Shown in pieces: positions 663 through 20,602 of a stretch of 64,000 nt of DNA. The notes under the pieces are model-generated. The model did no database searches. It was not told the DNA's origin and worked only from the letters and a program-made list of their open reading frames with translations. The number at the start of each line of letters is the position of its first letter. Positions within the stretch are counted from its first letter, which is position 1. The stretch covers positions 5,681,411 to 5,745,410 of the forward strand of contig NZ_CP036348.1 in assembly GCF_007753095.1 (NCBI RefSeq), read 5' to 3'. The position numbers and the translations under genes are program-made. This stretch comes from Rosistilla carotiformis (GTDB lineage: Bacteria > Planctomycetota > Planctomycetia > Pirellulales > Pirellulaceae).

Positions 663-699
663 ACTATAACGCCATGCCTGGTCGTGTTCGATGGATTCG

Positions 700-2995: not shown

Positions 2996-3380
2996 CGACG
3001 AACCATCCTCTCCTTTAAAGAAAATCAATCATTCACCGCAGAAGCATCGCGGCACCAAACGATGGCATCGGATTTGTCGTCGTGTCAGGAAGCAAACGTT
3101 TTTTTCCCTCTTTTGGCTGCTAAAATCGACGTCCAGCGGGAAATCAGCGGGCATGATTCAACGGTCGCTTCGAAGACCCCAGCCGCTACAGACGGCTTCC
3201 CCAGCAAATAGCGAATTGCCGAACTGTCACAGTTTCGCTATTCTCACCAGATTGGTGATATCGGTTCGACCTCGCTTTCCATCAACACAACCTGACACGG
3301 TGTCCCGGGCAGCTTAAGTGAGATTGCTCCCTTGAGCCACCCTCAGCGGAAACCGGAGACCGAGCAAAAGTTGGTTCCCC
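2996..3380. other. Divergent intergenic region between SDR/exporter and PKS operon
   Basis: This 385-base spacer must hold the promoters of both the biosynthetic operon (rightward) and the SDR-exporter operon (leftward). No convincing coding sequence, operator palindrome or consensus -35/-10 pair was seen. A T-rich stretch near 3107-3125 (ending in TAAAAT) is the most promoter-like part. A GGAGA lies roughly 20 bases before the GTG start of the PKS gene, which is too far to be a normal ribosome binding site. Confidence 0.4.
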
Positions 3381-6300
3381 GTGAAGAATGCTTCCCACCA
3401 AAACCAAACTGGCCAAGCACGCACTTTTTCCGAGCTGTTGTCAACTCGCGCCGCTCTCCACCCCGACCGCCCGGCGATCAAGTTCCTCGCCGAGGGAACC
3501 GAGGTAACGGACCAGGTCACGTATCAACAACTGCACGCCCGCGCCGCGTCGATCGGTTCGTGGCTGTCGGATCGCGGTTTGCGCGGCCGACCGGTACTGC
3601 TCGTCTTTCCCCAAAGTATCGACTACGCTGCCGCCTTCTTTGGCTGCCTTTACGCCGGAGCGATCGCCGTTCCCGCCTATCCGCCCCGTCGCAACCGAAA
3701 CCTCGATCGGCTGCAAGGCATGGCCAGCGATAGCGGCGCCGACGTGATCTTGACCAACGACGAACTGCTGGAATCCTTGAGCACCTGGGTCGACGAAGAC
3801 AACCCCCTTGGGCAGCGGTCTTTATTGTCGATCAATACGTTGACGGAGGACCCGCAATTCAATCCAGCCTTCGGAGCCGATCCCCAATCGCTCGCCTTCC
3901 TGCAGTACACGTCGGGATCGACCGGAGCGCCCAAGGGAGTCAGCGTCACCAACCGCAACCTGCTCGAAAACCAAACCATGATCACCGAGATCTTCGGCCA
4001 GCGCGAAGACGAAGTGATCACGTGCGGTTGGCTGCCGATGTATCACGACATGGGGTTGATCGGCAACCTGTTGCATCCGCTGTATCTGGGCGGGCATCTG
4101 GTATTGATGTCGCCATTCACCTTCTTCCAAAAACCGCTCTGCTGGTTGCAAGCGATCTCCGATCACCGCGCCACGATCAGCGGCAGCCCCAACTTCGGCT
4201 ACGACATGTGCGTCGAAGCGATCAGCGAACACGAACGCGAGCGCTTGGATCTAAGCAGCTGGAACCTCGCCTTCAACGGCGCCGAACCGGTCCGCCACGC
4301 AACGCTGCAGCGGTTTATCAAAACTTTCCAACCGCACGGCTTCTCCCCCACCGCCTTTTCCCCCTGCTTCGGGATGGCCGAAACCACGCTGATCGTCAGC
4401 GGAACGCGTCGCCCCGAGGCCCACAAATCGATCGAGGTCGATGCGGAATCACTCCGCCAGGGAACCGTTGAATCTCCCGCCCCACAGCCTCCCGAGCCAC
4501 CGTTGACGATCGTCTCCTCGGGACGCCCCGGGAGCGATTTTGATGTCCGAATCGTCGATCCCGAAACACGCATCGAATTGCCAGAGAACAAGACGGGCGA
4601 AGTCTGGGTCCATGGACCCAGCGTGACCAACGGTTATTGGCATCGACCAACCGAAACCGAACAAACCTTCCAGGCCACGATCGCGGGCGATTCGGAGCCT
4701 GCCAAACACTACCTGCGAACCGGCGACCTCGGCTTCCTTCGCGACGGAGAACTGTATGTTGCCGGTCGTCTCAAAGACACGATCATCGTGGCCGGAGCGA
4801 ATCATTACCCTAGTGATATCGAAGAGACAGTCGTCGCCAGCCATCCATCGTTGGCGATCGGTGGTGGAGTGGCTTTTTCGATCGACCGCGACGATCGCGA
4901 ACAAGTCTTTGTCGCCCAGGAACTGAAGCGTTCGCAGTGGCGTTCGTTTGATAAAGACGAAGTCATCTCAGCGATCTATGGACGCGTCTTCCAGGACCAT
5001 GGCCTCACACTTGCTGGCATTGTCCTGTTGCGTCCCGGATCGATTCCAAAAACAACCAGCGGAAAGCTTCAGCGTCGACTGACCGCCCAACTGTTTGCCG
5101 ATGGTGAACTGAAGACACTGGTCGATTGGTCGCGCGACGAAGCAATGGCGTCTTCACATCCCACCGAATCGAAACCTGAAAATGTCGACGCGACTCCGGC
5201 GACCGAAACGAGCCAACAGCAAGATCAATTGGCCGAACTGCAAACCTGGCTGACAGCACAATTAGCCTCGCTGCTGCAGATCTCTCCCGAATCGATCTCC
5301 GCTAGCGAACCGCTGGCACTCTATGGACTCACCTCTGTCGCAGCCGTTCGATTGGCAGGCATGCTCTCACAGCGCGTCGACCAACCGATCGATCCGACCC
5401 TGGCTTACAATTTCCCCACGATCGATTCGATCTGCCGGCACTTGGTTCTTGGCGAATCGGCCCGCCGCTTGTCGACGCGCGATCGCGTCCCTCCCGTCGC
5501 GTCAACCGCCGACGATCCGATTGCGATCATCGGCATGGCATGCCGTTTTCCCGGAGCGGCGTCGATCGACGAATTCTGGGATCTGTTGAGCTCCGGAAGC
5601 TGCGCGATCCGTTCTTCACGCGATGGGCAACCAGTTTCGTCTGGGGGTTCGGCCCCTTCGGCAGTGCCGACCGCGGCCGGCTACATCGACGGGGTCGATC
5701 AATTTGATCCCTCCTTTTTCTCGATCAGCCCGCGTGAAGCGGATGAAATGGATCCCCGTCAGCGACTGGCCATGGAGGTGAGTTGGCGGGCGATCGAGCA
5801 CGCCAACATGGATCCAAGGCGTTTGGCCGGTTCCCCGACAGGCGTTTTCTTTGGAGCCAGCGGTAACGATTACGAACGCCTGTGCAACGCGGCGGGGCAT
5901 CCGACGGGTGGACACTCGGCAACGGGAGTCTCCCACGCGATCATCGCCAACCGCATCAGTTACTTCCTGGATCTCCAAGGCCCCAGCTTCTCGGTCGATA
6001 CCGCCTGTTCGTCCTCATTGGTCGCGGTGCATCAAGCGGCCGAAGCAATCCGCGGCGGACAATGCGACACTGCGATTGCCGGTGGTGTCAACCTGATTCT
6101 CGATCCGGCGGTCACCCATGCGTTCCACGAGGCGGGCATGCTGTCACCGACCGGTCAATGCAAAACGTTCGCCGCCGGAGCCAATGGATTTGTCCGCGGC
6201 GAAGGCTGTGGTGTCGTCGTTTTAAAGCGGCTCTCCCAAGCGGTGGCTGATCGTGACAACGTGCTGTGCGTTGTGCGAAGTTCGGCCATCAACCAAGACG

Positions 6301-9300
6301 GCCGCAGCAACGGCCTGACCGCTCCTAGCGGCCTTGCGCAACAACAAGTCGTCCGCAGCGCATTGAACAATGGAGACGTTCACCCGGCGGAGGTCCAATA
6401 CGTCGAAGCGCATGGTACTGGTACCGAGCTAGGCGATCCGATCGAGATCGGTGCCTTGGCGGCCGTCTACGGAGACCGCTCCAGCCCCTTGCGGGTCGGT
6501 TCGGTCAAAACGAATATCGGTCATCTGGAAGCGGCTGCAGGAATTGCGGGCGTGATCAAAACCGTCTTGGCGCTCCGCAACCAAATCATTCCCCCGCACC
6601 TTGGCTTCGATGCCCCCAACCCACATATCGATTGGTCTCAACCGATCGAAGTGGCTTCCTCCACAACGATATGGAATTGTGACGATGGGCAGCTGCAACG
6701 CGCAGGCGTCAGCAGTTTCGGCTTCGGTGGCACTAACGCGCACTTGATCCTTGAGGCTCCCGCGTCGTCCCTTGCGGCCGGATCCGAAGACGCAGCTGAG
6801 GAACCATCGCAATTCCATCTGGTCAAGTTCTCCGCCAAGAGCGACGAAGCACTTGACGCTTTGGTCGCCGAGTTTTCGGATAACGCGCCGGCTGCGGAAC
6901 TCTCCGCCATTGCGGCGTCTGCCAACTTGGGCCGTTCCGATTTCCCACATCGCTTGGCCGTGATCGCTTCGTCGACCGACGACCTCATGCAGTGCCTGGG
7001 GAATCCTGAGAACCAACCGCGCGTCTTACGAAGTCAAAACGGGTCGCAACGACCGGCTGCCGAACAGGTCCGTCAAGCGTTGCACCAAGCGATTGCCAGC
7101 ACCGCCACGCTGGACGACCTTCGACAGCTGGGAAAACACTACGTCGATGGCGCCGCAATCGACTGGCGTCGGCTGCATCCAAATGCCTCGCGAACGATCG
7201 ACCTTCCCGGCCATCCGATGCGACGTCATCGCTGCTGGTTTCGCACGCAGCCGGCCGACGCGACGGGACGCCCGCTCTCCGGTGACCTCCCAAGCGAGCA
7301 TCCGTTGCTCGGAAACCGTTTCGATTTGGCCGGCGACACAATCGTTTTTGAAACCGATCTTTCCGCGATCGATCTGTTGCGCGATCACCGGCTGCGTGGG
7401 GAGACCCTCTTCCCGACGACCGGCTACATTGAACAAGCGCTCTCGGCGGCTTGGATCGCCAGCGGTCGCAAGGCGTGGGAAATCGAAGCGTTGCAAATCG
7501 AGCGACCGTTGCGGATTGCAGCGACAGGCCCTTGCCGAGTTCAAATTTCACTGGATCCTCGAGACGATGGATATCAATGTCGCATTCAACACCGAGGAGA
7601 CAGCGGGTGGCAACCGGTCGCGTCGTGCCAAGTTGTCGCCAGCACGCCGCTCCGGATGACGCCCCCGACGTCGGAACTCTCTTCGCCAACACATCGCTCC
7701 TCCGAACATCACTATGCCAACTGTGATGCCTTAGGATTGCAATACGGCCCGGCGTTTCGGGGACTGGTCGAAGTTCAGTCGGATACCGTCACGGCGGTTG
7801 GACGCGTCATGTTGCCAACGGACGTCGACGCATTTTCATCCGTGGTGATCCATCCCGCATTGTTGGATGCCTGCCTACAGTCCTTGGCTGCATTGATCCC
7901 CGAGGAATTGATGGGGTTGTGGCTACCTGTCGGACTCCAGCGTTTCAGGTTCCTATCGAAAGGTCCATTGGGGCGTGAGGTCTTGGTCCGCGGCCAGCTT
8001 CGTTTTGATCAAGCAACCGCGTCGCTGCTTGGCGATGTTTGGTTGTTGGATTCCGACGATCATGTCGTTGCAGTCGTCGAAGGCTTGCGGTTAGAGAACG
8101 GCCACCCCGTGTCGCCGGTCTCGCGATACGAAGAAGCTTGGCTGCCGCAGATCCGGCAACACGAAGCGACACCGCCCCCTGAGGTCACCGCCGTGGAGAT
8201 TTCCGCCGATCTGCTGGAGCGGCGCGACGAACTGCTTAGCAAAACCGGGTTCCTCGAATCGATCGATGCGCGGCAATTGCTTGACGAGACGTGCCAGCGT
8301 TGGGTGATCCACTGCCTTGTCAGCCTGATGGGGCCGCTGCCCGTGGGCAAGACATTGGTTCGTGAAGACTTCCCAACACGACTGGGCTTGCTGCCCGAGA
8401 AGCTTCGATCGTTCGAACGCATGCTTGAAATGCTGGTCGAAGACGGTCTGTTGGTTCGCGTCGAAGAGGGTTGGCAAACGAGGGTCGCGTTGGAACCGGG
8501 CGACGCGACATTCCATGAAGACACTCAGGCGACCTCATTGAACATCGCTGTCGCTTCCGAAGCCGCGTTACTGCAGCGCTGCGGCAGCCAATTGGCGGAA
8601 GTGCTCGTCGGCGAGATCGAGCCGTTGGACCTGTTGTTCCCCAAACAAGGCGTGACGGCAGCGGATGTCTACAAGACGTCGCCAGGGGCGCGAACGATCA
8701 ACGCGATGCTGGGGCAAGCGATTGAAGCCATCGTCGCCGCACTACCCGATGGACGCGGGCTCCGCGTGTTGGAGATCGGTGGCGGGACCGGGGGCACCAC
8801 ACACAATGTGCTCGCCAGCCTGCCAGCAGATCGTTTCCACTACACGTTTACCGATATCGGCGCTAGTTTCCTGGCGGCCGCACGCCAGACGTTTGCCAGT
8901 TGCGATGCGATTGAATTTAGGTCGCTCGATATCGAACAGGCTCCCGAATCGCAGGGTTTCGATTTGGCCAGCTTTGATCTCGTGATCGCCGCCAACGTAT
9001 TGCACGCCACGCGCGATCTGAACCAGACCGTCGCCAATGCCCGCTCGCTGCTGTCCCCCGGCGGCCAATTGTTGCTGCTGGAAGGGACACGTCGCTGCCG
9101 CTGGATGGACCTGACGTTCGGATTGACCGACGGATGGTGGCGGTTCGACGATGCGATCCGCTGCGACTATCCCATGGCCAATGAAGCGGCTTGGCGAAGC
9201 GTCTTGGCAGAAAATCAATTCGACACCGCGACGATCATCAGTCCGCTGCCCGACGATGATTCCCGCTCGGCCCAAACCGCGGAAAACGTCCTGATCGTGG

Positions 9301-12128
9301 CGACCGCCACGGAACTGAAATCGAAGCCGACTCGCGATCACTGGACGCTCGTGACCGACCGGATGTCGCGAGGTCAACGGCTCGCCAAACGCTTGATCCA
9401 AGAAGGCTGTACCGCAGAATTGATCGATGCCACCGCGGATGATTTCAGCGCGTCCGTCAGCGGCTCGATGACCCATTATCCCGGCACCCAGCACATCGCG
9501 TTCGTCGCCGGCCGATCTCAAGGTGATGCCAGCGAACACGCCCACGCCGCCTGCTTGCGGTTGCTACAAACCGTGCAGGCAATTTTGCCCAAGGTGGTGG
9601 GACCAATCGAACTGGCATTGATCACGTCCGATGCCGCAACCGATCCGACCGCGTCAGCGCTGCAAGGCATGCTCCGCTCGATCGCGTTGGAACAGCCCGA
9701 TTGGCGTGTGCGTTCGATCGATGCGGCCGGTAAAAAAGACAAATTCGCCCGCCAGGTTGCCGCTGAAATGTTGAGCGGTGATACGGAACCGGAGGTCTCC
9801 CTAGCGACCGATCGCCGTGTCCGCCGATTGCTGCAGTCGACATCGGACTTGATCGGCGACAACGGTCGCGTGCTGCGTGTGGCCACGCGAGGCAGCTTGG
9901 AAGGTGTCCGATTGGAATCGGTCCCGCGTCGCAAGCCGGGACGCGGCGAAGTTGAAATCGCTGTGTTGGCAAGCGGCTTGAATTATCGCGACATCTTGTT
10001 GGCGATGGGCATGTATCCCGGTGAAGCGCCGCTGGGGGCCGAATGTGTTGGACGCATCACGCGCGTGGGAAGCGGTGTTTCATCGCATCAGGTGGGCGAT
10101 TTCGTGATCGCGTTGGGGGAAGAGACATTCGCCGATTTCGTCACCGTTTCCGCGTCGCGGATCACCGCACTGCCCAACGGGCTTGGCTATGCCGAGGCAG
10201 CGACCATTCCCGTCGCTTTCCTGACCGCCTCGTTCGCGTTGGAGACGCTGGGCAATTTGCAGCCCGGGCAACGCGTGCTGATCCATTCAGCCACCGGCGG
10301 CGTCGGCTTGGCGGCGATCCAAATCGCGAAGGCATTGGGAGCGGAGATCTTTGCGACGGCAAGCACCAGCAAACACGCGGTCTTGCGCGAGCTGGGAATC
10401 GCGAGTGTCTTCGATTCCCGGTCGCCCGGATTTGCCGCCGCGATCGCCGATGCGACGGGAGGCCGAGGTGTCGATCTGATCCTCGACACGTTGCCGGAAT
10501 CGATGTTCCACGAGAATCTCGATTCTTTGGCCCCGAGCGGCGTGTACGTCGACATCACCAAACCGACCACCGATCGCGCTGCGGACCTCCGTTTCCGTCA
10601 ATCCGAGGCGTCAGCGACCTACCACTTGCTCGATTTGGTGCAAATCCTTCAGCAAGAACCGCAGACCGCAATCCGACGGCTCCGCGCCCTCCTGGCCCGC
10701 TTTGCCGATGGCAGCTATCAACCGCTGCCGATGGAAACCTTCCGATTATCCCATGCCGTCGACGCGATGCGGCAGATGCAGCTGGCCCGCCAGATCGGCA
10801 AACTGGTCCTTGTCGCCGACGATGCGCCGCAGCTGGCTTCTCGCGGGTCACTCGATTTTCAAGAACTCTCGATTCACAAAGACGCCGCATACGTGATCGC
10901 CGGTGGCCTGGGCGATTTAGGGCTGATGACTGCCGATTATCTTTCGCAGCGTGGCGCGGGCTTGATCGCATTGGTCCAACGCAGTCGGCCGACCGATGCC
11001 CAGCAAGTCGTGATCGACCGGATCGAAAATGCCGGCTCCCAAGTCTTGATTTGTGAAGCGGACATCGCCGACCGCGATCAAGTGGCATCGACATTAAACC
11101 GTGTCCGCCGCGAAGGGTTCCCCATCGCCGGGATCATTCATTCGGCGGGCGTGCTGCGCGACGCGTTTGTGCAAAATCAAGATGTGGATTCGTTTGGTCG
11201 AGTGTTCGACGTCAAAGCGGCGGGCGCATGGCACCTCCATGAACTGACCCTCGACGATCCGATCGATCTGTTTGTTGTCTATTCTTCGTTGGCATCGGTG
11301 ATTGGGGCACCTGGGCAATCGAATCACGCGGCCGCCAACGCCTTTCTCGATGGCCTGGTTCGACAGCGCCTCGCGTCCGGATTGCCCGCGACCAATTTCA
11401 ACTGGGGACCGTGGGGATCGATCGGCGAAGCGGCTCGCCGCGGTGCCGATTCCCGAACCGACATGCAAGGCGTGGGCGTGATCCAACCGGCAGCCGGAGC
11501 GATGACGATGCAGCGGATGTTGCCACGTAAATCGGCGATCGCCGCGATCGCTCAGATCAACGCGGACACGTTGCCGCCGCGGCTGAAGTCGCATCCGCTG
11601 TTCCAGGCGCTGCTGAACGCATCCACAACACCAGCCCCCCCGAATGAAGGTCAGATTGTCGACGAAATACACGCCGCGAATCCAGACCAGCGACCGCAGC
11701 GGATGCTTGAACACGTCCGCAAAACGCTGGCGGAGATTTTGGGGATGTCCGATGTTTCGCGAATTTCCGCATCGACAGTGATGACCGACATTGGGCTCGA
11801 TTCGTTAACCGCGCTCGAATTGCGAGATTCGCTACAAACCGACTTGGCGACGGCGCTACCCGCATCATTGGTTTATGATTATCCATCGGTGCGCGAGTTG
11901 TCCGATTTCTTGCTGACCTTAATAACGGCATCGGGAAAATCTGCCGATGATAGCAACCAGGAAGTTTTGGGAACCGTTGACGATCAGGCAGACCTTGCAT
12001 CGGTCAGTGAAACGCAGCGTGTCGAGCCCGCAGGAGAGCCTTCAATGGCGCCGGTCAGCAACGTCTCCAATCCAATCGAAGCTTCACTAGAACAATTGAA
12101 CGCAGAACTGAATCTCTGGGAATCATGA
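3381..12128 (+). CDS. Hybrid FAAL-polyketide synthase: FAAL-ACP-KS-DH-cMT-ER-KR-ACP, no AT
   Basis: A 2915-residue modular type I PKS from a GTG start. Domains in order: fatty acyl-AMP ligase (about 1-590; YTSGSTGAPKG near 176-186); acyl carrier protein with Ser652; ketosynthase (about 711-1127) with Cys876, His1011 and His1048; dehydratase with His1336 (HxxxGxxxxP) and Asp1496; C-methyltransferase with the SAM motif LEIGGGTGG near 1797; a structural KR-like segment; enoylreductase (about 2170-2480, SATGGVG); ketoreductase (GGLGDLG near 2508); ACP with Ser2808. Between KS and DH only the flanking linkers remain (DWRRLHPN...LPGHP is a post-AT linker), so the AT domain is missing and malonyl must come in trans. 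The KR has His2649 where Tyr is expected. The gene would activate a free fatty acid, extend it, alpha-methylate it and reduce the beta carbon. It overlaps the next gene by ATGA. Confidence 0.95.
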   Translation: MKNASHQNQTGQARTFSELLSTRAALHPDRPAIKFLAEGTEVTDQVTYQQLHARAASIGSWLSDRGLRGRPVLLVFPQSIDYAAAFFGCLYAGAIAVPAYPPRRNRNLDRLQGMASDSGADVILTNDELLESLSTWVDEDNPLGQRSLLSINTLTEDPQFNPAFGADPQSLAFLQYTSGSTGAPKGVSVTNRNLLENQTMITEIFGQREDEVITCGWLPMYHDMGLIGNLLHPLYLGGHLVLMSPFTFFQKPLCWLQAISDHRATISGSPNFGYDMCVEAISEHERERLDLSSWNLAFNGAEPVRHATLQRFIKTFQPHGFSPTAFSPCFGMAETTLIVSGTRRPEAHKSIEVDAESLRQGTVESPAPQPPEPPLTIVSSGRPGSDFDVRIVDPETRIELPENKTGEVWVHGPSVTNGYWHRPTETEQTFQATIAGDSEPAKHYLRTGDLGFLRDGELYVAGRLKDTIIVAGANHYPSDIEETVVASHPSLAIGGGVAFSIDRDDREQVFVAQELKRSQWRSFDKDEVISAIYGRVFQDHGLTLAGIVLLRPGSIPKTTSGKLQRRLTAQLFADGELKTLVDWSRDEAMASSHPTESKPENVDATPATETSQQQDQLAELQTWLTAQLASLLQISPESISASEPLALYGLTSVAAVRLAGMLSQRVDQPIDPTLAYNFPTIDSICRHLVLGESARRLSTRDRVPPVASTADDPIAIIGMACRFPGAASIDEFWDLLSSGSCAIRSSRDGQPVSSGGSAPSAVPTAAGYIDGVDQFDPSFFSISPREADEMDPRQRLAMEVSWRAIEHANMDPRRLAGSPTGVFFGASGNDYERLCNAAGHPTGGHSATGVSHAIIANRISYFLDLQGPSFSVDTACSSSLVAVHQAAEAIRGGQCDTAIAGGVNLILDPAVTHAFHEAGMLSPTGQCKTFAAGANGFVRGEGCGVVVLKRLSQAVADRDNVLCVVRSSAINQDGRSNGLTAPSGLAQQQVVRSALNNGDVHPAEVQYVEAHGTGTELGDPIEIGALAAVYGDRSSPLRVGSVKTNIGHLEAAAGIAGVIKTVLALRNQIIPPHLGFDAPNPHIDWSQPIEVASSTTIWNCDDGQLQRAGVSSFGFGGTNAHLILEAPASSLAAGSEDAAEEPSQFHLVKFSAKSDEALDALVAEFSDNAPAAELSAIAASANLGRSDFPHRLAVIASSTDDLMQCLGNPENQPRVLRSQNGSQRPAAEQVRQALHQAIASTATLDDLRQLGKHYVDGAAIDWRRLHPNASRTIDLPGHPMRRHRCWFRTQPADATGRPLSGDLPSEHPLLGNRFDLAGDTIVFETDLSAIDLLRDHRLRGETLFPTTGYIEQALSAAWIASGRKAWEIEALQIERPLRIAATGPCRVQISLDPRDDGYQCRIQHRGDSGWQPVASCQVVASTPLRMTPPTSELSSPTHRSSEHHYANCDALGLQYGPAFRGLVEVQSDTVTAVGRVMLPTDVDAFSSVVIHPALLDACLQSLAALIPEELMGLWLPVGLQRFRFLSKGPLGREVLVRGQLRFDQATASLLGDVWLLDSDDHVVAVVEGLRLENGHPVSPVSRYEEAWLPQIRQHEATPPPEVTAVEISADLLERRDELLSKTGFLESIDARQLLDETCQRWVIHCLVSLMGPLPVGKTLVREDFPTRLGLLPEKLRSFERMLEMLVEDGLLVRVEEGWQTRVALEPGDATFHEDTQATSLNIAVASEAALLQRCGSQLAEVLVGEIEPLDLLFPKQGVTAADVYKTSPGARTINAMLGQAIEAIVAALPDGRGLRVLEIGGGTGGTTHNVLASLPADRFHYTFTDIGASFLAAARQTFASCDAIEFRSLDIEQAPESQGFDLASFDLVIAANVLHATRDLNQTVANARSLLSPGGQLLLLEGTRRCRWMDLTFGLTDGWWRFDDAIRCDYPMANEAAWRSVLAENQFDTATIISPLPDDDSRSAQTAENVLIVATATELKSKPTRDHWTLVTDRMSRGQRLAKRLIQEGCTAELIDATADDFSASVSGSMTHYPGTQHIAFVAGRSQGDASEHAHAACLRLLQTVQAILPKVVGPIELALITSDAATDPTASALQGMLRSIALEQPDWRVRSIDAAGKKDKFARQVAAEMLSGDTEPEVSLATDRRVRRLLQSTSDLIGDNGRVLRVATRGSLEGVRLESVPRRKPGRGEVEIAVLASGLNYRDILLAMGMYPGEAPLGAECVGRITRVGSGVSSHQVGDFVIALGEETFADFVTVSASRITALPNGLGYAEAATIPVAFLTASFALETLGNLQPGQRVLIHSATGGVGLAAIQIAKALGAEIFATASTSKHAVLRELGIASVFDSRSPGFAAAIADATGGRGVDLILDTLPESMFHENLDSLAPSGVYVDITKPTTDRAADLRFRQSEASATYHLLDLVQILQQEPQTAIRRLRALLARFADGSYQPLPMETFRLSHAVDAMRQMQLARQIGKLVLVADDAPQLASRGSLDFQELSIHKDAAYVIAGGLGDLGLMTADYLSQRGAGLIALVQRSRPTDAQQVVIDRIENAGSQVLICEADIADRDQVASTLNRVRREGFPIAGIIHSAGVLRDAFVQNQDVDSFGRVFDVKAAGAWHLHELTLDDPIDLFVVYSSLASVIGAPGQSNHAAANAFLDGLVRQRLASGLPATNFNWGPWGSIGEAARRGADSRTDMQGVGVIQPAAGAMTMQRMLPRKSAIAAIAQINADTLPPRLKSHPLFQALLNASTTPAPPNEGQIVDEIHAANPDQRPQRMLEHVRKTLAEILGMSDVSRISASTVMTDIGLDSLTALELRDSLQTDLATALPASLVYDYPSVRELSDFLLTLITASGKSADDSNQEVLGTVDDQADLASVSETQRVEPAGEPSMAPVSNVSNPIEASLEQLNAELNLWES

Positions 12129-15100
12129 CCGAACCGCTCCGCTTTTCCACCGAACAACAAGTTGTTGATGCCTTGACCAAGGCGTCTCAACGGTTGGCCG
12201 ACGCGCGGCGCAAGCGAGACGAACCGATCGCAGTGATTGGAATGGGGTGCCGATTTCCAGGAGCGGACGGTCTGGACGCGTTCTGGAATTTGTTAAGCGA
12301 CGGCAAGTGTGCGATCGGCCGGGTTCCTAGCGATCGCTGGGATGCCGAGGCGTTCACATCGCCACAGCCTAAAGTGCCCGGCAAGATGATCACCGATCGG
12401 GCCGGTTTCATCGATGAGGTGGATCAATTCGATTCGCGATTTTTTGAGATCACCCGCCGCGAGGCGAGTTCGCTGGACCCGCAGCACCGTTTGCTACTGG
12501 AGACCGCTTGGCGAACGCTCGAACACGCGGGCATCCCGGTCGAAAGCACCGCCGGCGGCCGACATGGTGTGTTTGTCGGGATCTGCAGCAGCGACTATCT
12601 GGCGTTGCTAAATAAGACAGACCTTTCCACGATCGATGCCTATCGAGGGACAGGCAACGCCCACGGAGCGGCGGCGGGCCGATTGAGCTACTTTATGAAG
12701 TGGCAAGGGCCGAGTATGGCGATCGATACGGCTTGTTCTTCGTCGCTGGTCGCGGTGCATCAAGCGATCGCCAGTCTCCGCGGCGGCGAGTGCGAGATGG
12801 CGTTGGTCGCAGGCGTGAATCTGATCCTGACGCCGGGATTGAGCATCAATCTGTCGCAAGCGGGCATGCTGTCGCCGCGTGGACTTTGCCAAGCGTTCGC
12901 CGCGTCGGCCGATGGCTTTGTCCGTGGTGAAGGCTGCGGCGCCGTGCTGCTGAAACGACTCAGCGACGCGATTCACGATGGCGATCGAATCGTGTGCTGT
13001 TTGAGCGGATCGGCCGTCAATCAGGACGGTCGCAGCAACGGCTTGACCGCCCCCAACGGTCTCTCGCAGCAAGACGTAATCCGCGCGGCGCTGAAACGCA
13101 GTCGTTTGACCCCCGATGCGATCGACTACATCGAAGCCCACGGAACCGGCACGCCGTTGGGTGACCCAATCGAAATGCGGGCTTTGGGCGAAGTCTTCGG
13201 CCAACGCGAGCGCCCCTTGCTGGTCGGATCGGTCAAGACGAACATCGGGCATCTCGAAGGCGCAGCGGGCGTCGCCGGACTGATTAAAACCTGCCTGTCG
13301 TTGCAAAACCAAGCGTTGCCCCAACACCTTCACTTCGATCAGCCCAGCGACCACATTGATTGGTCGCTGCCAATCGAAGTGACCAACCGATACCGCGACT
13401 GGAAAACGGAAACCGCCGCCGTCTGCGAGCGCCAACTCCGTCGTGCCGGAGTCAGCAGTTTTGGATTCGGCGGCACCAATGCGCATGTGATCGTGGAAGA
13501 GTATTGTCCGACAGCAACCGATGAATCCAACGTTTCCGAATCCGGACTGACAATCGTCAAATTGTCGGCAAAGACGGAAACCGCATTGGAACAACTGACT
13601 CGCCAATTCGCCTGTTCGCTCCCCGACGGATCGCTCGCCCAAATTGCGGCAACCGCGAATTTGGGACGCGATGATTTTCAGTTCCGCCGTTTTGTGATCG
13701 CCGCCAGTCGCGAAGACTTGGTTTTGAGACTCAACGATCCGACGTCCAGCGCGGAACCGCAAACGCCCCGACACAAAGACTTGTTATCACTAGGACAACG
13801 CTATGTCGCTGGCGAAACGATCGACTGGCCTGCAGTCACACCAGGTCGACGCAGCCAGATGGTCACCCTGCCCGGGCACCCGTTTGTCCGCCAGCGTTGC
13901 TGGGTAACAACGCAGAAGCCGCATGAGACCACGGGTCCCGTCGAATCGACACGTACAGCGCAAACGCTCGCGACCTCCGAATCGCATCCTTTGCTGGGCA
14001 GCCGATTGGATCTGGCCGGGAAAGCGATTGTTTTCGAGAGCGATATTGCCCAGGTCGACTACCTGATGGATCACCGCTTGCGGGACGAAGCGATTTTCCC
14101 GGCGACCGGCTATATCGAACAAGGACTGGCCGCGGCTCAGCGGATTGCCGGTAAGAACCTTGGCGTGCGGGACCTGCAGTTGCTTCGTCCTCTGCCGGTG
14201 AACGAAAGCGGTTGCCGTGTCCAAGTCGTTTTGGAACCGGATTACAGCGGCGGATACCGTTGCAGCGTTCAACACCGCGGCGACGGCCCCTGGCAAGAAC
14301 ACGCCACGATGCAGCTGCGAGATGCCGATCACGAGGCCTTGGCGATCGCGAACTGGAACGCTGCAAGTTCCGCTGCCGTTCCAACGAAACAGATCGAGAT
14401 CGAAAAACACTATGCATCGATGGATGCCATGGGCATTCAATACGGCCCCACATTTCGTGGCTTGCAACGCTTAAGCGTCCAAGGGACGATCGCTTGCGGC
14501 GAGGTTGCATTCCCACCGTCGATGGCCGACTTCGCCGTTTACAGTTTGCACCCCGCATTGCTGGACGCTTGCTTCCAAGTCCTCGCCGCTTTGATGCCCG
14601 GCGATCAACACGCGATGTGGCTTCCGGTGTCGATCGATCGGGTGGATCACGAGAGCCTGAAACCTTCGTTGACGAAACTTCATGTCGTGGGACGGTTGCT
14701 GCGAGACGAAACCAGCGATCAATGGATCGGCGATATCCAATTGTGCGACGAAACGCGAAACGTACTGGGAAATGTACGTGGCCTGCATCTGCAACGCTTC
14801 GCTGCCAAACCACGCCAACCGAGCGATCACCGTTCCCGCCGGTCAAACGATTCACACCCCCTGGGGCACCCGGCGGACTACGCCGATGCGGCAACCTATG
14901 AAAGCAAGTTGCTGGACTTTGCGCAGCGAACGGTTGCGGAGATCGCGGAGATTGATGTCGACGAAGTATTGCTAGATGCCCCGCTGACGTCGTTGGGAAT
15001 CGATTCCATCATGGCGATCGAATTGCAAGACGTGCTTGAAAAAGAAATCGACATCCAAGTCTCGATGGAACTGTTCTTGAAAGATCTCAGTTTGCGAGCG

Positions 15101-15193
15101 CTGCTACACGAAGTGCTTTCCGCACACCGATCCAACGACGCACAGCACGCCGGTTCGTCCTCGGACGACGCTTGGGTTGAGGGGGCGTTATGA
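12125..15193 (+). CDS. Polyketide synthase module KS-DH-ACP without AT or KR
   Basis: A 1022-residue PKS. A short helical N-terminus (about 1-33) resembling a docking segment leads into a ketosynthase (about 34-460) with Cys204, His339 and His376. As in the upstream module, the AT is absent: after the KS come only linker pieces (VKLSAK; later DWPAVTPG and LPGHPFVRQRCW). The dehydratase carries His650, but the HxxxGxxxxP motif reads HRLRDEAIFP, with Asp for Gly, and has Asp814 in HPALLDAC. The ACP has Ser961 in GIDSI. There is no KR, so the DH has no in-module hydroxyl substrate unless another KR acts on it. The acidic, Ser-rich C-terminal tail could dock to the TubC-like N-terminus of the next protein. 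Starts and stops overlap both neighbours (ATGA before; TTATGA after), implying translational coupling. Confidence 0.95.
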   Translation: MTEPLRFSTEQQVVDALTKASQRLADARRKRDEPIAVIGMGCRFPGADGLDAFWNLLSDGKCAIGRVPSDRWDAEAFTSPQPKVPGKMITDRAGFIDEVDQFDSRFFEITRREASSLDPQHRLLLETAWRTLEHAGIPVESTAGGRHGVFVGICSSDYLALLNKTDLSTIDAYRGTGNAHGAAAGRLSYFMKWQGPSMAIDTACSSSLVAVHQAIASLRGGECEMALVAGVNLILTPGLSINLSQAGMLSPRGLCQAFAASADGFVRGEGCGAVLLKRLSDAIHDGDRIVCCLSGSAVNQDGRSNGLTAPNGLSQQDVIRAALKRSRLTPDAIDYIEAHGTGTPLGDPIEMRALGEVFGQRERPLLVGSVKTNIGHLEGAAGVAGLIKTCLSLQNQALPQHLHFDQPSDHIDWSLPIEVTNRYRDWKTETAAVCERQLRRAGVSSFGFGGTNAHVIVEEYCPTATDESNVSESGLTIVKLSAKTETALEQLTRQFACSLPDGSLAQIAATANLGRDDFQFRRFVIAASREDLVLRLNDPTSSAEPQTPRHKDLLSLGQRYVAGETIDWPAVTPGRRSQMVTLPGHPFVRQRCWVTTQKPHETTGPVESTRTAQTLATSESHPLLGSRLDLAGKAIVFESDIAQVDYLMDHRLRDEAIFPATGYIEQGLAAAQRIAGKNLGVRDLQLLRPLPVNESGCRVQVVLEPDYSGGYRCSVQHRGDGPWQEHATMQLRDADHEALAIANWNAASSAAVPTKQIEIEKHYASMDAMGIQYGPTFRGLQRLSVQGTIACGEVAFPPSMADFAVYSLHPALLDACFQVLAALMPGDQHAMWLPVSIDRVDHESLKPSLTKLHVVGRLLRDETSDQWIGDIQLCDETRNVLGNVRGLHLQRFAAKPRQPSDHRSRRSNDSHPLGHPADYADAATYESKLLDFAQRTVAEIAEIDVDEVLLDAPLTSLGIDSIMAIELQDVLEKEIDIQVSMELFLKDLSLRALLHEVLSAHRSNDAQHAGSSSDDAWVEGAL

Positions 15194-18100
15194 TTTCGAT
15201 CGATCCCCTTGTCGACAAGTTGGTCGCTGACCTGCGACAGCGTGGTGTGAAGCTGTGGAACGACGGAGGCTTGCTTCGCTTCAGCGCTTCCAAAAGTGCG
15301 CTCTCGCCAGCGTTGATGCTGCAGATGCGTAAGCACAAAGCTGCAATCCTGGAACTGCTGCAGCAAGAATCACCGGACGATGACGACGACCAGCAGACCG
15401 GTCCCGTTTCCTTGGGACAGGAATCGTTATGGCTTTTGCATAAGCAATTCCCCGACAGTCCCGCCTATAACACGGCAGCCACGCTGCGATTTGTAGCTCC
15501 CGTGGAGGTCGCCGCGCTGCGCGCCGCGTTTCAAAAACTGATCGCCCGGCACGAACCGCTGCGAACCACCTTTGCAGCCGCCCCAGGGCACGACGTTCAC
15601 GCCGTCGTGCATTCGAGTGCGACGCTTGATTTCCAGCAGGCCGACGTCGCCGACGAAGCGGCACTACATCAACGTGTGCGATCCGAATATTTGCAGCCGT
15701 TCCGCCTCGATCAAAGTCCGCTGATGCGAGTCCGGTTGTTCACCCGATCGGCCAACGACCAGATCCTATTGATCGTCGTCCACCATATCGTTTTTGATGC
15801 CTTTTCATTGTGGGTGATGCAAGATGAACTGAAGCAGTTGTATGCCAGTGAAGTTGCCGGCACGGATTGTTTATTGCCCGCGCTGCCGGCCCAATACAGC
15901 GACTTTGTCCGCTGGCAACGCGAGTTTCCTGAGACCGCCGCGGGGAACAAACAATGGGATTACTGGAAACAGCAATTGGCAGGCGATCCGGTTCCCGCCG
16001 AACTGTTATGGGACCGACCACGCCCACGCCGCAGTGCCGCCCGGGGCGCAACATTGCATTTCCCAATCGACAATCAATTGGCCGCTGGCCTGCGACAATT
16101 GGGGCGAGAGAACAACGCGACGCCTCTGGCCGTAGGGTTGGCGGTTTTTCAAACGCTCATGTATCGGCTCACCCATATCGAAGACGCGGTGGTGGGAATG
16201 ACGACCGCGGGGCGTTCGACACGCGAATACGCCAACGCGATCGGCTATTTTGTCAACACGTTGCCGATCCGTGGTCGAATTCAGGGAAAGCTGAAATTCG
16301 CAGACGTATTGACGTCGGCGATGCAAACGACCGTCGAAGCGCGGCAAGCGCAAGACTTTCCGTTTGCGTTGCTGGTTCAACGTCTTCGCCCCGTCCGTGA
16401 TTTGTCGGCACCGCCATTGTGCCGCGTTGTGTTTGGGCTACAGAAGCCGATGGCCGGCGATGACGTGGCGAGCTTGCTGGCTGGCAGCAACCAGTCCGTC
16501 GAATGGGGCGACACGCGTGTCGCCTGCTATCCGATGGATCAACAGGAAGGTCAGTTCGATCTCGTGCTGGAACTTTACCAGACACCCGACGGCTATACCG
16601 GCGTGTTGAAGTACGATCTGAATCTGATGCATACCGCATCGGCAAAACGGTTTGCCGACCAGTTTGCGCACCTTTTGGGACAGGTTGTCGACGATCCCCA
16701 TCGCGACGTCGATGACTATTCGATCGTTCCCGACGCGGAGCGGGCTCAGTTGCGGCAGTGGGCGATCGCTCCGCAGATCAACGATCCACAACACCTACGT
16801 TTCGACCGGTGGTTTGAATCGCAAGCCGCCGCGTCCCCCGAGACATCGGCCGCCGCGCTGGGAGAGCACCAGCTTTCCTATGCTGAACTGGACGCGCTGA
16901 CCAATCGAGTTGGCCGCCTGCTGCAACAACACGGCGCGTCGATCGGCAGCCATGTGATTGTCGCGTGTGGACGAACGATCGAAGCTCCCGTCTTGATGTT
17001 GGCCTGCTTCAAAATCGGAGCCGCCTATGTGCCGATGTCGCCAACGACTCCCGAGGTCCGCGCGTGCCAAATGGTTTCGGATTGCAATCCGGCGTTGGTG
17101 ATTGCCGTCCCCTCGCTTGCCCATTCGCTCGCTCAAGAATTGCCGCAGCAGCGTGTGCTCGACGCCGCCACGCTGTTGAATTTGGCAGCCGACCTAGACG
17201 ACGCGCGGATTGGAGCGGCTTTTGGCGACGAAACGACAGCGTATGTGATTTGCACTTCGGGCTCGACCGGCACGCCCAAAGGGATTGCCGTGTCACATGC
17301 CGCGCTTTGCCGGCATACCGCCAGCATGCGTGAGGTCTTCGGCACGACGGCCGCCGATCGGATGTATCAGTTCAGCGACCTGACCTTCGACCCATCGATC
17401 GAACAAATGGTCGTACCGTGGTCGGTTGGCGGAGCCGTTGTTTTTCGCGATGACAACTTGCCATCGGTCGAAGAGTTTTGGCAGACGATGTTGGATCAAA
17501 AGATCACCATCGCCAACCTGCCCCCCAAATATTTCGAAGAGTGCAGTCGTGCGATCCCGTTTGGCGATGCCTGGCCCCGCAGCCTACGTCTGATGATCGT
17601 TGGGGGAGACGTCTTCCCACGCGATGTTGCCAGCGACTGGATCGATCGCGGCGTTCGGTTGCTCAACGCGTATGGTCCCACCGAGACCGTGATCACCGCG
17701 ACCACCTGCGACGTGACTGCCGACTGGGCCCGTCTGCGGTTGCCGATCGGTAAACCCAAGCCCGGCTCAACCGCTTTCGTCCTGGACCGCCGGCACCGGC
17801 AGATGCCCATCGGCGTGGCGGGCGAACTGTATCTGGGCGGGCCGATGCTGGCCGACGGTTATGTCAACCTGCCCGAAGAGACGGCGCAGCGATTCATCCA
17901 AGTCGAAGTCGATGGCGTCGTCCAACGCATGTATCGGTCGGGCGATCTGACGCGTTGGAACTCCGAAGGGCAGCTGGAATTTTTGGGCCGGATCGATCGC
18001 CAGGTGAAGATTCGAGGTTTCCGGATCGAGCTGGGGGATATCGAAGCGGCGTTGGCGTTGCATCCAAGCGTCAGCGCAGGAATCGTCAAAGCGTTTGAAG

Positions 18101-18582
18101 ATGCTGGCGACACCTACCTGGCGGCGTTCCTGACAACCGAGCCTTCCGACGATGTGAGTGTCGAATCGATCGTTTCGCATCTCAAGGGGCGACTGCCGAT
18201 TTACATGGTTCCCCAACGCGTGGTGATTCTGGATCAATTGCCCCTGTTGGCCAGCGGCAAGGTCGATTCGAATCAGCTGCATGCCGATCCCCCATCGACC
18301 GCCGTATTGCATCGGGCCTATGTCGCGCCACAGACCCAGGTCCAGCAGATCCTCGCGGAGGTTTGGGCCAGTGTGCTGAATTTGGAACGGGTCGGAATCG
18401 ACGACGACTTCTACGACCTCGGCGGCGGATCGCTGCAAGCGCTCCGTATCGTTTCGGAATTATCAGCCCAAGACCTTGTTTCACAAAGCGACGACGACGG
18501 CCTTCCCCTGAGCCCTCAGATGCTTTTCCAATACACCACGATTTCTGAACTTTCGCCTCACCTGAGGCTTGCGAGTACATAA
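15190..18582 (+). CDS. Non-ribosomal peptide synthetase, TubC-docking-C-A-PCP
   Basis: An 1130-residue single-module NRPS. Residues 1-55 match the TubC N-terminal docking fold (LRQRGVKLW...GLLRFSASK...LQMRKHKAAILELL). The condensation domain (about 60-500) has HHIVFDA at 198-204 (the usual DG is DA). The adenylation domain (about 535-1030) has TSGSTGTPKG, NAYGPTE, YRSGDL and the terminal catalytic Lys in ASGKVDS. Hand alignment to GrsA gives pocket residues DPENIGAITK; Glu at the third position and the DxEN pattern resemble codes for ornithine/lysine, so a basic amino acid is a tentative prediction. The carrier domain has Ser1081 in GGGSLQA. No thioesterase or reductase follows. The C domain would join the polyketide acyl chain to the amino acid. 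The KAS III didomain gene starts 4 bases downstream. Confidence 0.95.
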   Translation: MISIDPLVDKLVADLRQRGVKLWNDGGLLRFSASKSALSPALMLQMRKHKAAILELLQQESPDDDDDQQTGPVSLGQESLWLLHKQFPDSPAYNTAATLRFVAPVEVAALRAAFQKLIARHEPLRTTFAAAPGHDVHAVVHSSATLDFQQADVADEAALHQRVRSEYLQPFRLDQSPLMRVRLFTRSANDQILLIVVHHIVFDAFSLWVMQDELKQLYASEVAGTDCLLPALPAQYSDFVRWQREFPETAAGNKQWDYWKQQLAGDPVPAELLWDRPRPRRSAARGATLHFPIDNQLAAGLRQLGRENNATPLAVGLAVFQTLMYRLTHIEDAVVGMTTAGRSTREYANAIGYFVNTLPIRGRIQGKLKFADVLTSAMQTTVEARQAQDFPFALLVQRLRPVRDLSAPPLCRVVFGLQKPMAGDDVASLLAGSNQSVEWGDTRVACYPMDQQEGQFDLVLELYQTPDGYTGVLKYDLNLMHTASAKRFADQFAHLLGQVVDDPHRDVDDYSIVPDAERAQLRQWAIAPQINDPQHLRFDRWFESQAAASPETSAAALGEHQLSYAELDALTNRVGRLLQQHGASIGSHVIVACGRTIEAPVLMLACFKIGAAYVPMSPTTPEVRACQMVSDCNPALVIAVPSLAHSLAQELPQQRVLDAATLLNLAADLDDARIGAAFGDETTAYVICTSGSTGTPKGIAVSHAALCRHTASMREVFGTTAADRMYQFSDLTFDPSIEQMVVPWSVGGAVVFRDDNLPSVEEFWQTMLDQKITIANLPPKYFEECSRAIPFGDAWPRSLRLMIVGGDVFPRDVASDWIDRGVRLLNAYGPTETVITATTCDVTADWARLRLPIGKPKPGSTAFVLDRRHRQMPIGVAGELYLGGPMLADGYVNLPEETAQRFIQVEVDGVVQRMYRSGDLTRWNSEGQLEFLGRIDRQVKIRGFRIELGDIEAALALHPSVSAGIVKAFEDAGDTYLAAFLTTEPSDDVSVESIVSHLKGRLPIYMVPQRVVILDQLPLLASGKVDSNQLHADPPSTAVLHRAYVAPQTQVQQILAEVWASVLNLERVGIDDDFYDLGGGSLQALRIVSELSAQDLVSQSDDDGLPLSPQMLFQYTTISELSPHLRLAST

Positions 18583-18586
18583 ACTG

Positions 18587-20602
18587 ATGTTGATGAAGAC
18601 TAACGATACCATGCTGCGTACCGTGATCGAGAGCATTGGTGCTTACCTGCCTTCGCACGAGGTGACGACCGACGAGATCGTACAGGGGTGCGAACGGAAA
18701 GTCCGCGTGCCGCTGGCGAAGCTGACAGGCATTCGTTCGCGTCGCCGCGCGGGGGTCGATGAGTTTTCGATCGATCTGGCAGAGAAAGCGGTCAGCGACT
18801 GCTTGAACCATTCGGCGTTGGCCGCCGACCAAATCGAGGCGATCGTCTGCACCAACATCTCGCGTTGGGACAGCAAGAATTCGGTCACATTTGAACCGGC
18901 GACCAGCGTCCGGCTGAAATCGCTGCTCGGACTGGACAACGCCATCGCGATCGACATCTCCAATGCGTGTGCTGGAATGTGGACCGGCGTCTACATGATC
19001 GATGCTTTGATTCGCAGCGGTGCGATCCGCAGTGGAATGGTCGTCAGCGGGGAATACATCACCCACCTGATCGATACCGCGCAGAAGGAAATCGTCGACT
19101 TCATGGATCCGCAATTGGCTTCGCTGACGCTGGGGGACGCCGGCGTCGCGCTGACGCTGACAGCCGCGGGATCGACCGGCAGCGGATTTCACGATCTCGA
19201 TATGTACACGCTCAGCAAATACAGCCAGTTTTGTGTTGCCAAGCCGACCGACAAGCCTCACGGCGGCGCGGCGATGTACACCGATGCGATCAAGGTCACC
19301 GAGTCGGTAGTCCCTCATGCGGCGCGGCACGCCAAAGATGTTCTCGATCGAAACGAATGGGGCTTCGATGCGATTGGACATGTGATCCCGCATCAAACCA
19401 GTAAGCTGACGATGCAAGAAGGGATGCGTGAGATCAAGCGGCTGTTCGATTACGACCTGTCGCAACGCCTGATTAACAACTTAGAACAAAGGGGCAACAC
19501 ATCCAGCAACGCCCACTTCTTGGCATTGCACGACGCGATGCGACGGCGCGAAGTCAAAGGAGGCGATTCGATCGTCTTTTGCATCTCCGGATCGGGTCAA
19601 ACGACGGGGACCGCCCTTTATGTGTGCGATGATTTGCCCGAACGGATCAATGCGGAAGACGCTCAAAACGGCAAACCGCGGCGCGAGATCGCGTCGACCG
19701 AATCGGCGCTGATGCCGATCCAATTGCAAGTCGAATCGCTAGGCATCGCGTATCCGCCGACTCGCGAAACCGCCGACACGCTGACCATGCTGCAGCAGGC
19801 CGGAGAGCAATGCTTGAAGCAATCCAGCTGCGAAAAACAGGACATCGATATCCTGATCGCCGCCTGCACCTACCGCACTGAATTTATCATGGAACCGGCG
19901 ATCGCAGCCTTGCTGGCCGGCCGGATGGAGATCAACTTCGATCGCGAACCCGAAGCCGAAGACAAGACGTTTGCCTTCGATGTGATCAACGGCGAAATTG
20001 GGATGATGAAGTCGTTGTTCTTGGCTTCGGAATTCATTCGCGCCGGTCGCGGCAAGAAGGTGATGGTCGTCGGATCGGAAGTCGACAACAACGCAGCCGA
20101 TCGCCCCGATCAATCGATCGACGTCTCGCCGATGGCGTCGGCGTTGATCGTCCAGGAATCGGTCGATGCGACCTGCGGATTTCTGTCCTTCCATTTCCAA
20201 GACTTCACGCAGTTCAAAGACCTCCGGAAATCCGAAGGCTACTGGAACCAGCAGGGGCAAGCCTGCATGAATTGCACCGATCAACCCGAAGCGTTGCACG
20301 CGGCCTATCTCGATTGTATCGAAACGACGGTCGCCAATTTCCTGCAAACCAATGAGCTTACGCGAGAAGACATCGCCCGCATTGTCCCCTCTCCGATCTC
20401 CAGCGCGTTTGTCGCCGATGTCGCAACGCGGTTGCAATTCCCTGCCGAAAAGGTGCTCGACATCTCCGACGCCAACGGTTCGCTGATGTCTTCGGCGATC
20501 CCCGTTGGCCTGAAAAACCTTGAAGTCGCCTCGGGTGAGATGGTGCTGTTCATAAGCGTCAGCCCCGGTATCCAGATCGGATGTGCCCTCTACATGGCGT
20601 AG
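18587..20602 (+). CDS. Fused tandem ketoacyl-ACP synthase III-like protein (active + degenerate domain)
   Basis: About 671 residues containing two thiolase-fold KAS III-like halves. The first (about 1-355) has a full triad: Cys128 (SNACAG), His269 (IPHQTS) and Asn304 (GNTSS). The second (about 375-671) keeps the fold signatures but has Glu470 (VINGEIG) for Cys and Ser602 (VPSPIS) for His, with no clear Asn. KAS III enzymes are homodimers; this looks like a heterodimer made by fusion, comparable in logic to PqsC-PqsB, where PqsB lacks the catalytic residues. As the last gene of an assembly line without thioesterase, it may release the carrier-bound acyl-amino acid by condensation or acyl transfer; this is inference. 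The ATG at 18587 was chosen (4 bases after the NRPS stop); TTG 18569 and ATG 18611 are alternatives. Confidence 0.88.
   Translation: MLMKTNDTMLRTVIESIGAYLPSHEVTTDEIVQGCERKVRVPLAKLTGIRSRRRAGVDEFSIDLAEKAVSDCLNHSALAADQIEAIVCTNISRWDSKNSVTFEPATSVRLKSLLGLDNAIAIDISNACAGMWTGVYMIDALIRSGAIRSGMVVSGEYITHLIDTAQKEIVDFMDPQLASLTLGDAGVALTLTAAGSTGSGFHDLDMYTLSKYSQFCVAKPTDKPHGGAAMYTDAIKVTESVVPHAARHAKDVLDRNEWGFDAIGHVIPHQTSKLTMQEGMREIKRLFDYDLSQRLINNLEQRGNTSSNAHFLALHDAMRRREVKGGDSIVFCISGSGQTTGTALYVCDDLPERINAEDAQNGKPRREIASTESALMPIQLQVESLGIAYPPTRETADTLTMLQQAGEQCLKQSSCEKQDIDILIAACTYRTEFIMEPAIAALLAGRMEINFDREPEAEDKTFAFDVINGEIGMMKSLFLASEFIRAGRGKKVMVVGSEVDNNAADRPDQSIDVSPMASALIVQESVDATCGFLSFHFQDFTQFKDLRKSEGYWNQQGQACMNCTDQPEALHAAYLDCIETTVANFLQTNELTREDIARIVPSPISSAFVADVATRLQFPAEKVLDISDANGSLMSSAIPVGLKNLEVASGEMVLFISVSPGIQIGCALYMA

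Follow-up and report, generated by a model that had tools for sequence, protein, structure and literature searches.

A fused LstA-LstB-like double KAS III at the end of FAAL-PKS-NRPS assembly lines and its proposed part in non-decarboxylative chain release

Main finding

The window (the whole analysed stretch of 64,000 nucleotides from Rosistilla carotiformis, whose genome of 7.44 Mb is a single contig) encodes a protein that combines a catalytic and a catalytically incomplete KAS III in one chain and is best read, by its sequence, as a fused LstA-LstB enzyme and not as a PqsBC. The fused enzyme is real and widespread; its release chemistry is a well motivated proposal, according to which a pseudo-dimeric condensing enzyme of the LstAB type would end a FAAL-PKS-NRPS line by non-decarboxylative Claisen release with Glu436 as the base (estimated probability approximately 0.6).

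The double KAS III gene and its predicted fold

The features of the gene are given with window coordinates, strand and basis of assignment:

18587..20602 (+): double KAS III gene, 671 aa, fused LstA-like and LstB-like halves (translation, Pfam, model, alignment, tree)
18608..19642 (+): half 1 (residues 8-352), LstA-like, catalytic (C128/H269/N304; tree)
19718..20599 (+): half 2 (residues 378-671), LstB-like, without Cys and His (alignment; tree)
18968..18970 (+): codon of Cys128, proposed acyl-enzyme nucleophile (alignments)
19892..19894 (+): codon of Glu436, proposed general base from half 2 (86 of 86 rows; aligned with the LstB-type Glu and OleA Glu117)
18893..18895 (+): codon of Glu103, the half 1 counterpart of Glu436 (86 of 86 rows)

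Positions 18587-20602 (+) translate to 671 amino acids followed by a stop codon (an alternative start of the reading frame is TTG at 18569); the stop of the preceding NRPS gene lies at 18582, which leaves the gap of 4 bases reported in the initial annotation. That one chain contains both an active KAS III and a dead one, as described there, was borne out: the Pfam domains ACP_syn_III and ACP_syn_III_C were each found twice along the chain, the AlphaFold2 model based on a 76-row alignment reached a mean pLDDT of 92.0 and a pTM of 0.94 (compared with a poor pLDDT of 66.8 when 6 rows were used), and the 50 Foldseek matches listed for the model were KAS III-type proteins, each matching approximately half of it. 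The residues were also read as claimed: positions 128/269/304 of half 1 are Cys, His and Asn, and Glu470 and Ser602 occupy the Cys and His positions of half 2. The two halves of the window protein share 20.9% identity over 306 aligned positions.

Gene cluster in the window

The neighbouring genes of the cluster are:

15190..18582 (+): NRPS, TubC docking-C-A-PCP, no TE (Pfam; A-domain code DPENIGAIT)
12125..15193 (+): PKS 2, KS-DH-ACP, no AT found (Pfam)
3381..12128 (+): PKS 1, FAAL-ACP-KS-DH-MT-ER-KR-ACP, no AT found (Pfam; FAAL by NCBIfam)
1988..3028 (-): extended SDR of the epimerase/3beta-HSD family (Pfam; same BLAST cluster as the SDRs of 23 other neighbourhoods)
700..1827 (-): MacB/FtsX-type permease (domain scan)
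1..791 (-): ABC ATPase clipped by the window edge, probably belonging to the same exporter as the permease (shares a BLAST cluster with ORFs from 23 further neighbourhoods)

The operon runs in the order PKS 1, PKS 2, NRPS, double KAS III, all on the forward strand, and neither thioesterase nor acyltransferase domains were found by Pfam in these four proteins. Since both PKS proteins (3381-15193) possess a KS and lack an AT, the window line may require a trans-acting AT; the Bacteroidota PKS beside locus L044 has an AT of its own. The extended SDR, the permease and the ABC ATPase lie divergently at the other end of the cluster. On the 3' side, the double KAS III gene is followed by a convergent GHMP-kinase-like gene, an amidohydrolase gene and, from 25.6 kb, the gene of the RNA polymerase alpha subunit; the double KAS III gene is therefore probably the last one of the cluster. 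The earlier statement that no TE, reductase or cyclase follows the NRPS was correct for the thioesterase (Pfam) but has to be qualified with regard to the SDR (1988-3028, -) at the cluster's other end.

Members of this BLAST cluster of SDRs are present in 24 of 85 neighbourhoods. In NCBIfam, the window SDR matched best to HpnA (99.5 bits), followed by OleD-type models (69.5 and 60.3 bits), all below cut-off, and its identity is 28.7% to an LstD-type and 23.0% to an OleD-like protein; its assignment as a true OleD/LstD was not supported. Reduction of a released beta-keto product by this SDR is possible. OleC was not found in the window cluster (the OleA and the OleC-like gene of this genome are both located far from it), nor were a stand-alone ligase or a formyltransferase detected among the cluster genes scanned. 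The Streptomyces lst-like operon comprises genes for a KAS III, a hypothetical protein, a fatty acid CoA ligase, an epimerase family protein, an NRPS and a formyltransferase, a content that is not matched by the window cluster with its NRPS and distant SDR only. A further lipstatin-like operon (KAS III, partner, ligase, SDR, NRPS, formyltransferase, MMPL transporter) was observed on a Rhodococcus qingshengii plasmid (L154, 8986-19510).

Conservation of the active-site columns

Six aligned double KAS proteins served as the query of a scan that yielded 234 relatives, of which 80 were retained for analysis; an earlier scan of genome contigs with a single protein had confirmed no relative. The alignment for residue counts comprised 86 rows (the 80 loci and the six double KAS proteins), of which 85 are distinct, as rows G038 and L051 are the same contig of 75,715 bases. 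The Cys, His and Asn of half 1 were each present in 86 of 86 rows; one of the two half-1 patterns used in the scan behind the 80 rows spans the Cys, so that its count is partly built in, while the His, the Asn, both Glu and the whole of half 2 were unselected. The five A-type proteins of two-gene pairs, which were found by other searches, also carry Cys, His and Asn.

Neither Cys nor His occurred at the catalytic columns of half 2 in any of the 86 rows, and the restored Cys in half 2, which by the initial annotation would have refuted its reading, was not seen: the Cys column contained Ala (48), Ser (18), Gly (13), Glu (4), Pro (2) and Asn (1), the His column Pro (80) and Ser (6). Both columns were reproduced by aligning all halves to each other; in that alignment the Asn column of half 2 held Asp (78), Ser (3), Asn (3), Lys (1) and Glu (1), the Asn being kept in three rows. 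The Asp in 78 of 86 rows is left unaccounted for by the mechanism proposed below and is a point against it. Glu470 was rejected as a catalytic residue, and with it a decarboxylase-like half 2 built on Glu470, as Glu was found in only 4 of 86 rows at a column of mostly Ala, Ser and Gly. The suggestion that half 2 may not be inert is probably right, though on account of Glu436.

E436-P437-A438 of half 2 was invariant in 86 of 86 rows and constituted the sole run of three invariant columns in this half (76-row alignment). E103-P104 of half 1 was equally invariant (86 of 86) and fell into the same column as E436-P437 when the halves were aligned; a Glu-Pro of the OleA-117 type is therefore present in both halves of all rows. 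In the FabH-type paralogues read in the same genomes this Pro was preceded by Phe, Leu, Met or Thr, never by Glu; the Glu-bearing KAS III proteins of those genomes were the OleA of the window genome, an OleA-like protein in the genome of L088 and an LstA-like protein in a Mycobacterium.

Relationship to LstA-type and LstB-type proteins

The comparison sequences were LstA- and LstB-type proteins from lst-like operons of Streptomyces and of Rhodococcus plasmids (the Streptomyces toxytricini LstB was not included). In the maximum-likelihood tree of 52 rows, rooted at the midpoint for drawing, half 1 clustered with the LstA-type proteins (support 99/94) and half 2 with the LstB-type proteins (100/100); each half formed a single clade (98/97 and 100/99, respectively), separate from OleA and from FabH, and L110 contributed a long branch with its half 2. 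The separate affiliation of the halves argues for the fusion of an LstA-LstB pair and not for the recent doubling of one KAS III. The alignments agree: the Cys/His/Asn columns of half 1 match those of two LstA-type proteins, and E436 lies opposite E59 in one and E57 in the other of two LstB-type proteins (Streptomyces, Rhodococcus) and falls on E57-E61 in five of five LstB-type and other B-type partner proteins. One ORF extended over both halves in all 80 analysed loci of the 234 relatives, unlike the two-polypeptide LstAB; the enzyme is for this reason classed as a fused variant of the LstAB pair.

Three other affiliations were rejected. Membership in OleA is contradicted by the two halves in one chain and their grouping outside the OleA branch, and a FabH-like homodimer, with Cys-His-Asn in both subunits, by the count of 0 of 86 for Cys or His in half 2. 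PqsC-PqsB, which had initially been put forward as the model, was abandoned, as Asn304 is retained in 86 of 86 rows, whereas PqsC has none, and as the tree places the halves beside LstA- and LstB-type proteins.

Distribution and gene settings of the relatives

The titles of the 80 analysed loci (of 234 relatives) point to about seven phyla, i.e. Planctomycetota, Bacteroidota, Actinomycetota, Chloroflexota, Acidobacteriota, Lentisphaerota and Gemmatimonadota, the phylum being presumed by us for those relatives whose title gives genus or family alone. Across genomes the distribution is patchy: of the 60 genomes in the relatives sample, 6 (among them that of the window) had a strong full-length match, and among 392 genomes sampled evenly over the phylum (E <= 1e-40) the double KAS III was present in the window's own genome and a two-gene version in G249; G207 and G235 of the latter sample gave a single-KAS III match (only G235, L032, was read). 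In the planctomycete G249 (L034, 365-2316), the active and the dead KAS III are encoded by adjacent genes and no PKS/NRPS match was found in 12 kb.

An N-terminal extension of more than 200 amino acids was present in 55 of the 80 loci (six of these run off the contig start) and matched C or A domains in 53, which places the double KAS III in frame behind an NRPS; Pfam resolved the order C-A-PCP-KAS III-KAS III in L062, and in G029 a single ORF of 3,932 amino acids reads from FAAL through double KAS. Two Bacteroidota genomes encode the double KAS by a gene of its own, divergent from that of a TE-less C-A-PCP NRPS. TE was absent from the four NRPSs scanned (window, L062, L156, L157). A PKS, NRPS or FAAL match lay within 1.5 kb in 72 of 80 loci (60 of 65 with full flanks) versus 0 of 14 control loci with a single KAS III. 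These in-frame fusions and the contrast to the controls support the initially proposed position at the end of a TE-less PKS/NRPS line, plausibly for release.

Domain calls on whole loci at a threshold of 80 bits revealed C or A domains in 66 of 80 loci, only FAAL, KS or other PKS domains in 8 and none of these in 6. Four of the latter are short contigs (L058, L061, L081, L087; L061 has a weaker A match); L055 (16.7 kb) and L104 (22 kb), without any PKS/NRPS domain, are real exceptions. The extension of L067 and L078 is a FAAL (Pfam order FAAL-ACP-double KAS, without C or A). In view of these four loci, the more general claim that the enzyme always neighbours an NRPS and accepts an acyl-aminoacyl chain does not hold.

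Several variant settings were observed. The L067 and L078 proteins (3854-9013 and 6935-11998, respectively) are single chains with approximately 250 residues without Pfam match between the FAAL-ACP part and the double KAS III and no NRPS/PKS module; this minimal version might join fatty chains directly. In L104 (a Lentisphaeria MAG; region 9965-14269) the double KAS III stands without an NRPS next to an aminotransferase gene and a GNAT plus acyltransferase gene, which we take to be OlsB/PlsC-like; the setting may point to an aminolipid route. LstAB-like pairs of two genes, with the motif EPALAAL in the dead partner, were found in Mycobacterium (L151, 9395-11435, -) and on a Rhodococcus plasmid (L155, 6944-8915, +), adjoining genes of universal stress protein, trehalose phosphatase and wax ester synthase, a setting reminiscent of dormancy lipids. 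In Bacteroidota locus L041, a luciferase-like monooxygenase gene is located beside FAAL and a P450 gene beside the double KAS (6498-7805, 12029-13381); the BLAST clusters of this monooxygenase and P450 comprised 13 loci each, one member of each being scanned with Pfam.

Genes resembling oleBCD were found beside the double KAS in only 2 of the 80 loci (of 234 relatives), L044 and L088, which are closely related to each other; a hydrolase, an OleC-like ligase and an OleD-like reductase lie ahead of the double KAS in the same orientation, and none of these genes is an OleA. The hydrolase, presumably OleB-like, is haloalkane-dehalogenase-like in L044 (NCBIfam, below cut-off). The OleC-like ligase of L044 matched PRK09274 with 699.6 bits (cut-off 478), the beta-lactone synthetase models remaining below cut-off, and the OleD-like reductases of L044 and L088 scored 416 and 417 bits (cut-off 580). 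In the genome of L044 four other KAS III-type proteins were found (the L128 pair, L147, L148), all without the Glu; the genome of L088 encodes another OleA-like protein bearing the Glu (L140).

Proposed release mechanism and alternative explanations

In the proposed sequence of events, the FAAL would activate a fatty chain, the PKS modules would extend it, and the chain would be coupled to an amino acid carried by the PCP. From the PCP, the acyl-aminoacyl group would then pass to Cys128, freeing the carrier, so that release would proceed without a thioesterase; Glu436 would reach over the pseudo-twofold interface and take an alpha-proton, and a second acyl thioester (CoA or ACP) would be joined to the chain with no CO2 lost from a malonyl unit. 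The expected product is a beta-keto thioester, or the acid, in which an acylamido group flanks the ketone; it might subsequently be decarboxylated to an amido-ketone or reduced by the neighbouring SDR; at the two loci with oleBCD-like genes it may become a beta-lactone or an olefin. The fusion behind an NRPS in 53 of 80 loci, and behind FAAL-ACP in two, indicates that the enzyme stands beside a loaded carrier, and the FAAL-ACP-double KAS proteins suggest that a plain acyl chain can be taken up from a carrier. The OleC/OleD-like pair without an OleA ahead of the double KAS in L044 and L088, together with the lack of the Glu in the four other KAS III-type proteins found in the genome of L044, also speaks for the proposal. 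In OleA, as described in the PpyS paper (PMC4578411), the base acts on the enzyme-bound acyl group; for the double KAS III, the aminoacyl group is favoured as the electrophile, as a fully substituted alpha-carbon would otherwise result with most amino acids.

The conserved triad could alternatively serve a decarboxylative release, in which the Cys128-bound chain is condensed with malonyl-CoA/ACP as in FabH and the resulting beta-keto-gamma-amido compound cyclises (e.g. to a tetramic acid) or is hydrolysed: the His and Asn that decarboxylate malonyl-ACP in FabH (PMC4807248) are kept in 86 of 86 rows. This explanation is regarded as unlikely, since all rows have the OleA-117-type Glu in both halves and none of the FabH-type paralogues read has it, and since LstA, which condenses without decarboxylation, has a triad identical to that of half 1 (PMC12141560).

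The same invariant Glu would not be needed for an acyl transfer to an O- or N-nucleophile, or for hydrolysis, with half 2 as a docking partner, and the nearest characterised relatives, LstAB, form C-C bonds; ketosynthases with acylating activity do exist, according to PMC4578411, yet such a function is assigned a distinctly low probability here. CerJ would be an example of such O- or N-acyl transfer.

An action before or beside the line, by which the enzyme would make or prime the acyl chain instead of releasing it, would be in line with the separate divergent gene of the Bacteroidota loci, the LstAB-like two-gene pairs beside wax ester synthase genes and the FAAL-ACP-double KAS proteins of L067 and L078 without NRPS; it appears very unlikely in view of the 53 of 80 loci fused directly behind the NRPS and the four scanned NRPSs without another release domain. 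A PqsBC-like heterodimer with a purely structural half 2, resembling PqsB (without all three catalytic residues; PMC4807248) in the loss of Cys and His, is scarcely credible given the Asn of half 1 that is absent in PqsC, the LstB-type grouping of half 2 and its E-P-A in 86 of 86 rows.

Some findings also count against the favoured non-decarboxylative release by a fused LstAB-type enzyme: Glu103 is as invariant as Glu436, which a one-way donation of Glu leaves unaccounted for; LstAB and OleA use CoA thioesters in print, the PCP as donor thus being an assumption; L055 and L104 are without NRPS genes; the window SDR is distant from OleD/LstD, and the window cluster has no OleC; and oleBCD-like genes accompany the double KAS in just two closely related loci of 80, one of which, L088, has a further Glu-bearing OleA-like protein in its genome.

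A-domain codes and possible products

Codes were extracted from 58 rows, 57 of which are true A domains (L078 is a FAAL). DPWH(F/I)SLID or DVWHISLID accounted for 31 of the 57, DILQLG(M/L)IW for 8 and DPENIGA(I/V)T for 6, the window included, with 12 others; two further Bacteroidota A domains were glycine-type. By the Stachelhaus code we take the first group to be serine-type and the second glycine-type. As a tentative extension of low probability, an N-acyl-aminoacyl chain might be released by the cis-fused, half-dead OleA/LstAB through non-decarboxylative Claisen condensation with a fatty acyl thioester and, with a serine-type A domain, give a 3-ketoceramide after CO2 loss; mycobacteria and others could in this manner make ceramide-like lipids without serine palmitoyltransferase, with the SDR reducing the ketone and the FtsX/ABC system exporting the product.

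If the proposed release is true, NRPS/PKS products would be set free not only by hydrolysis, cyclisation, reduction or Dieckmann-type closure but also by C-C bonding to a second fatty chain, the TE-less FAAL-PKS-NRPS clusters in about seven phyla would be accounted for, and amido-ketones, beta-lactones or ceramide-like lipids would be predictable product classes. More generally, this would suggest that one catalytic glutamate can be the reason for keeping a 'dead' KAS III partner.

Comparison with known systems

The closest resemblance is to LstA-LstB, the lipstatin synthase of Streptomyces toxytricini, which likewise combines a Cys-His-Asn partner with a partner carrying an essential Glu: according to PMC12141560, the LstA triad is C128/H271/N305, the substitution of LstB E60 by Ala abolishes LstAB activity, and the two polypeptides condense two acyl-CoAs. 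In contrast to these two polypeptides with acyl-CoA substrates, the window enzyme is a single chain, and 53 of the 80 related loci have it joined to the end of an NRPS.

OleA of Xanthomonas campestris shares the Glu-Pro approximately 25 residues before the Cys, and the Glu of one subunit acts as base in the neighbouring subunit (PMC7064751, PMC4578411); PDB entry 5vxf is titled OleA E117Q, and its Gln sits where the wild type has the Glu of LEPST. OleA differs, however, in being a homodimer of identical active subunits on a separate branch of the tree. PpyS, the photopyrone synthase, performs a head-to-head condensation with Cys-His-Asn and a Glu105 proposed to come from the partner, the E105A variant being inactive (PMC4578411); it differs as a stand-alone enzyme, modelled as a homodimer, that makes alpha-pyrones. 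PqsB-PqsC likewise pairs an active with a dead KAS III in a heterodimer of pseudo-2-fold symmetry, PqsC being without the Asn and PqsB without all three catalytic residues (PMC4807248); apart from the missing Asn it differs in its chemistry and operon.

Among the open-access literature matches listed, there was no earlier description of a fused KAS III pair on an NRPS. The enzyme is best filed with the known LstAB-type KAS III pairs, as a variant whose two partners are fused and which stands at the end of an assembly line.
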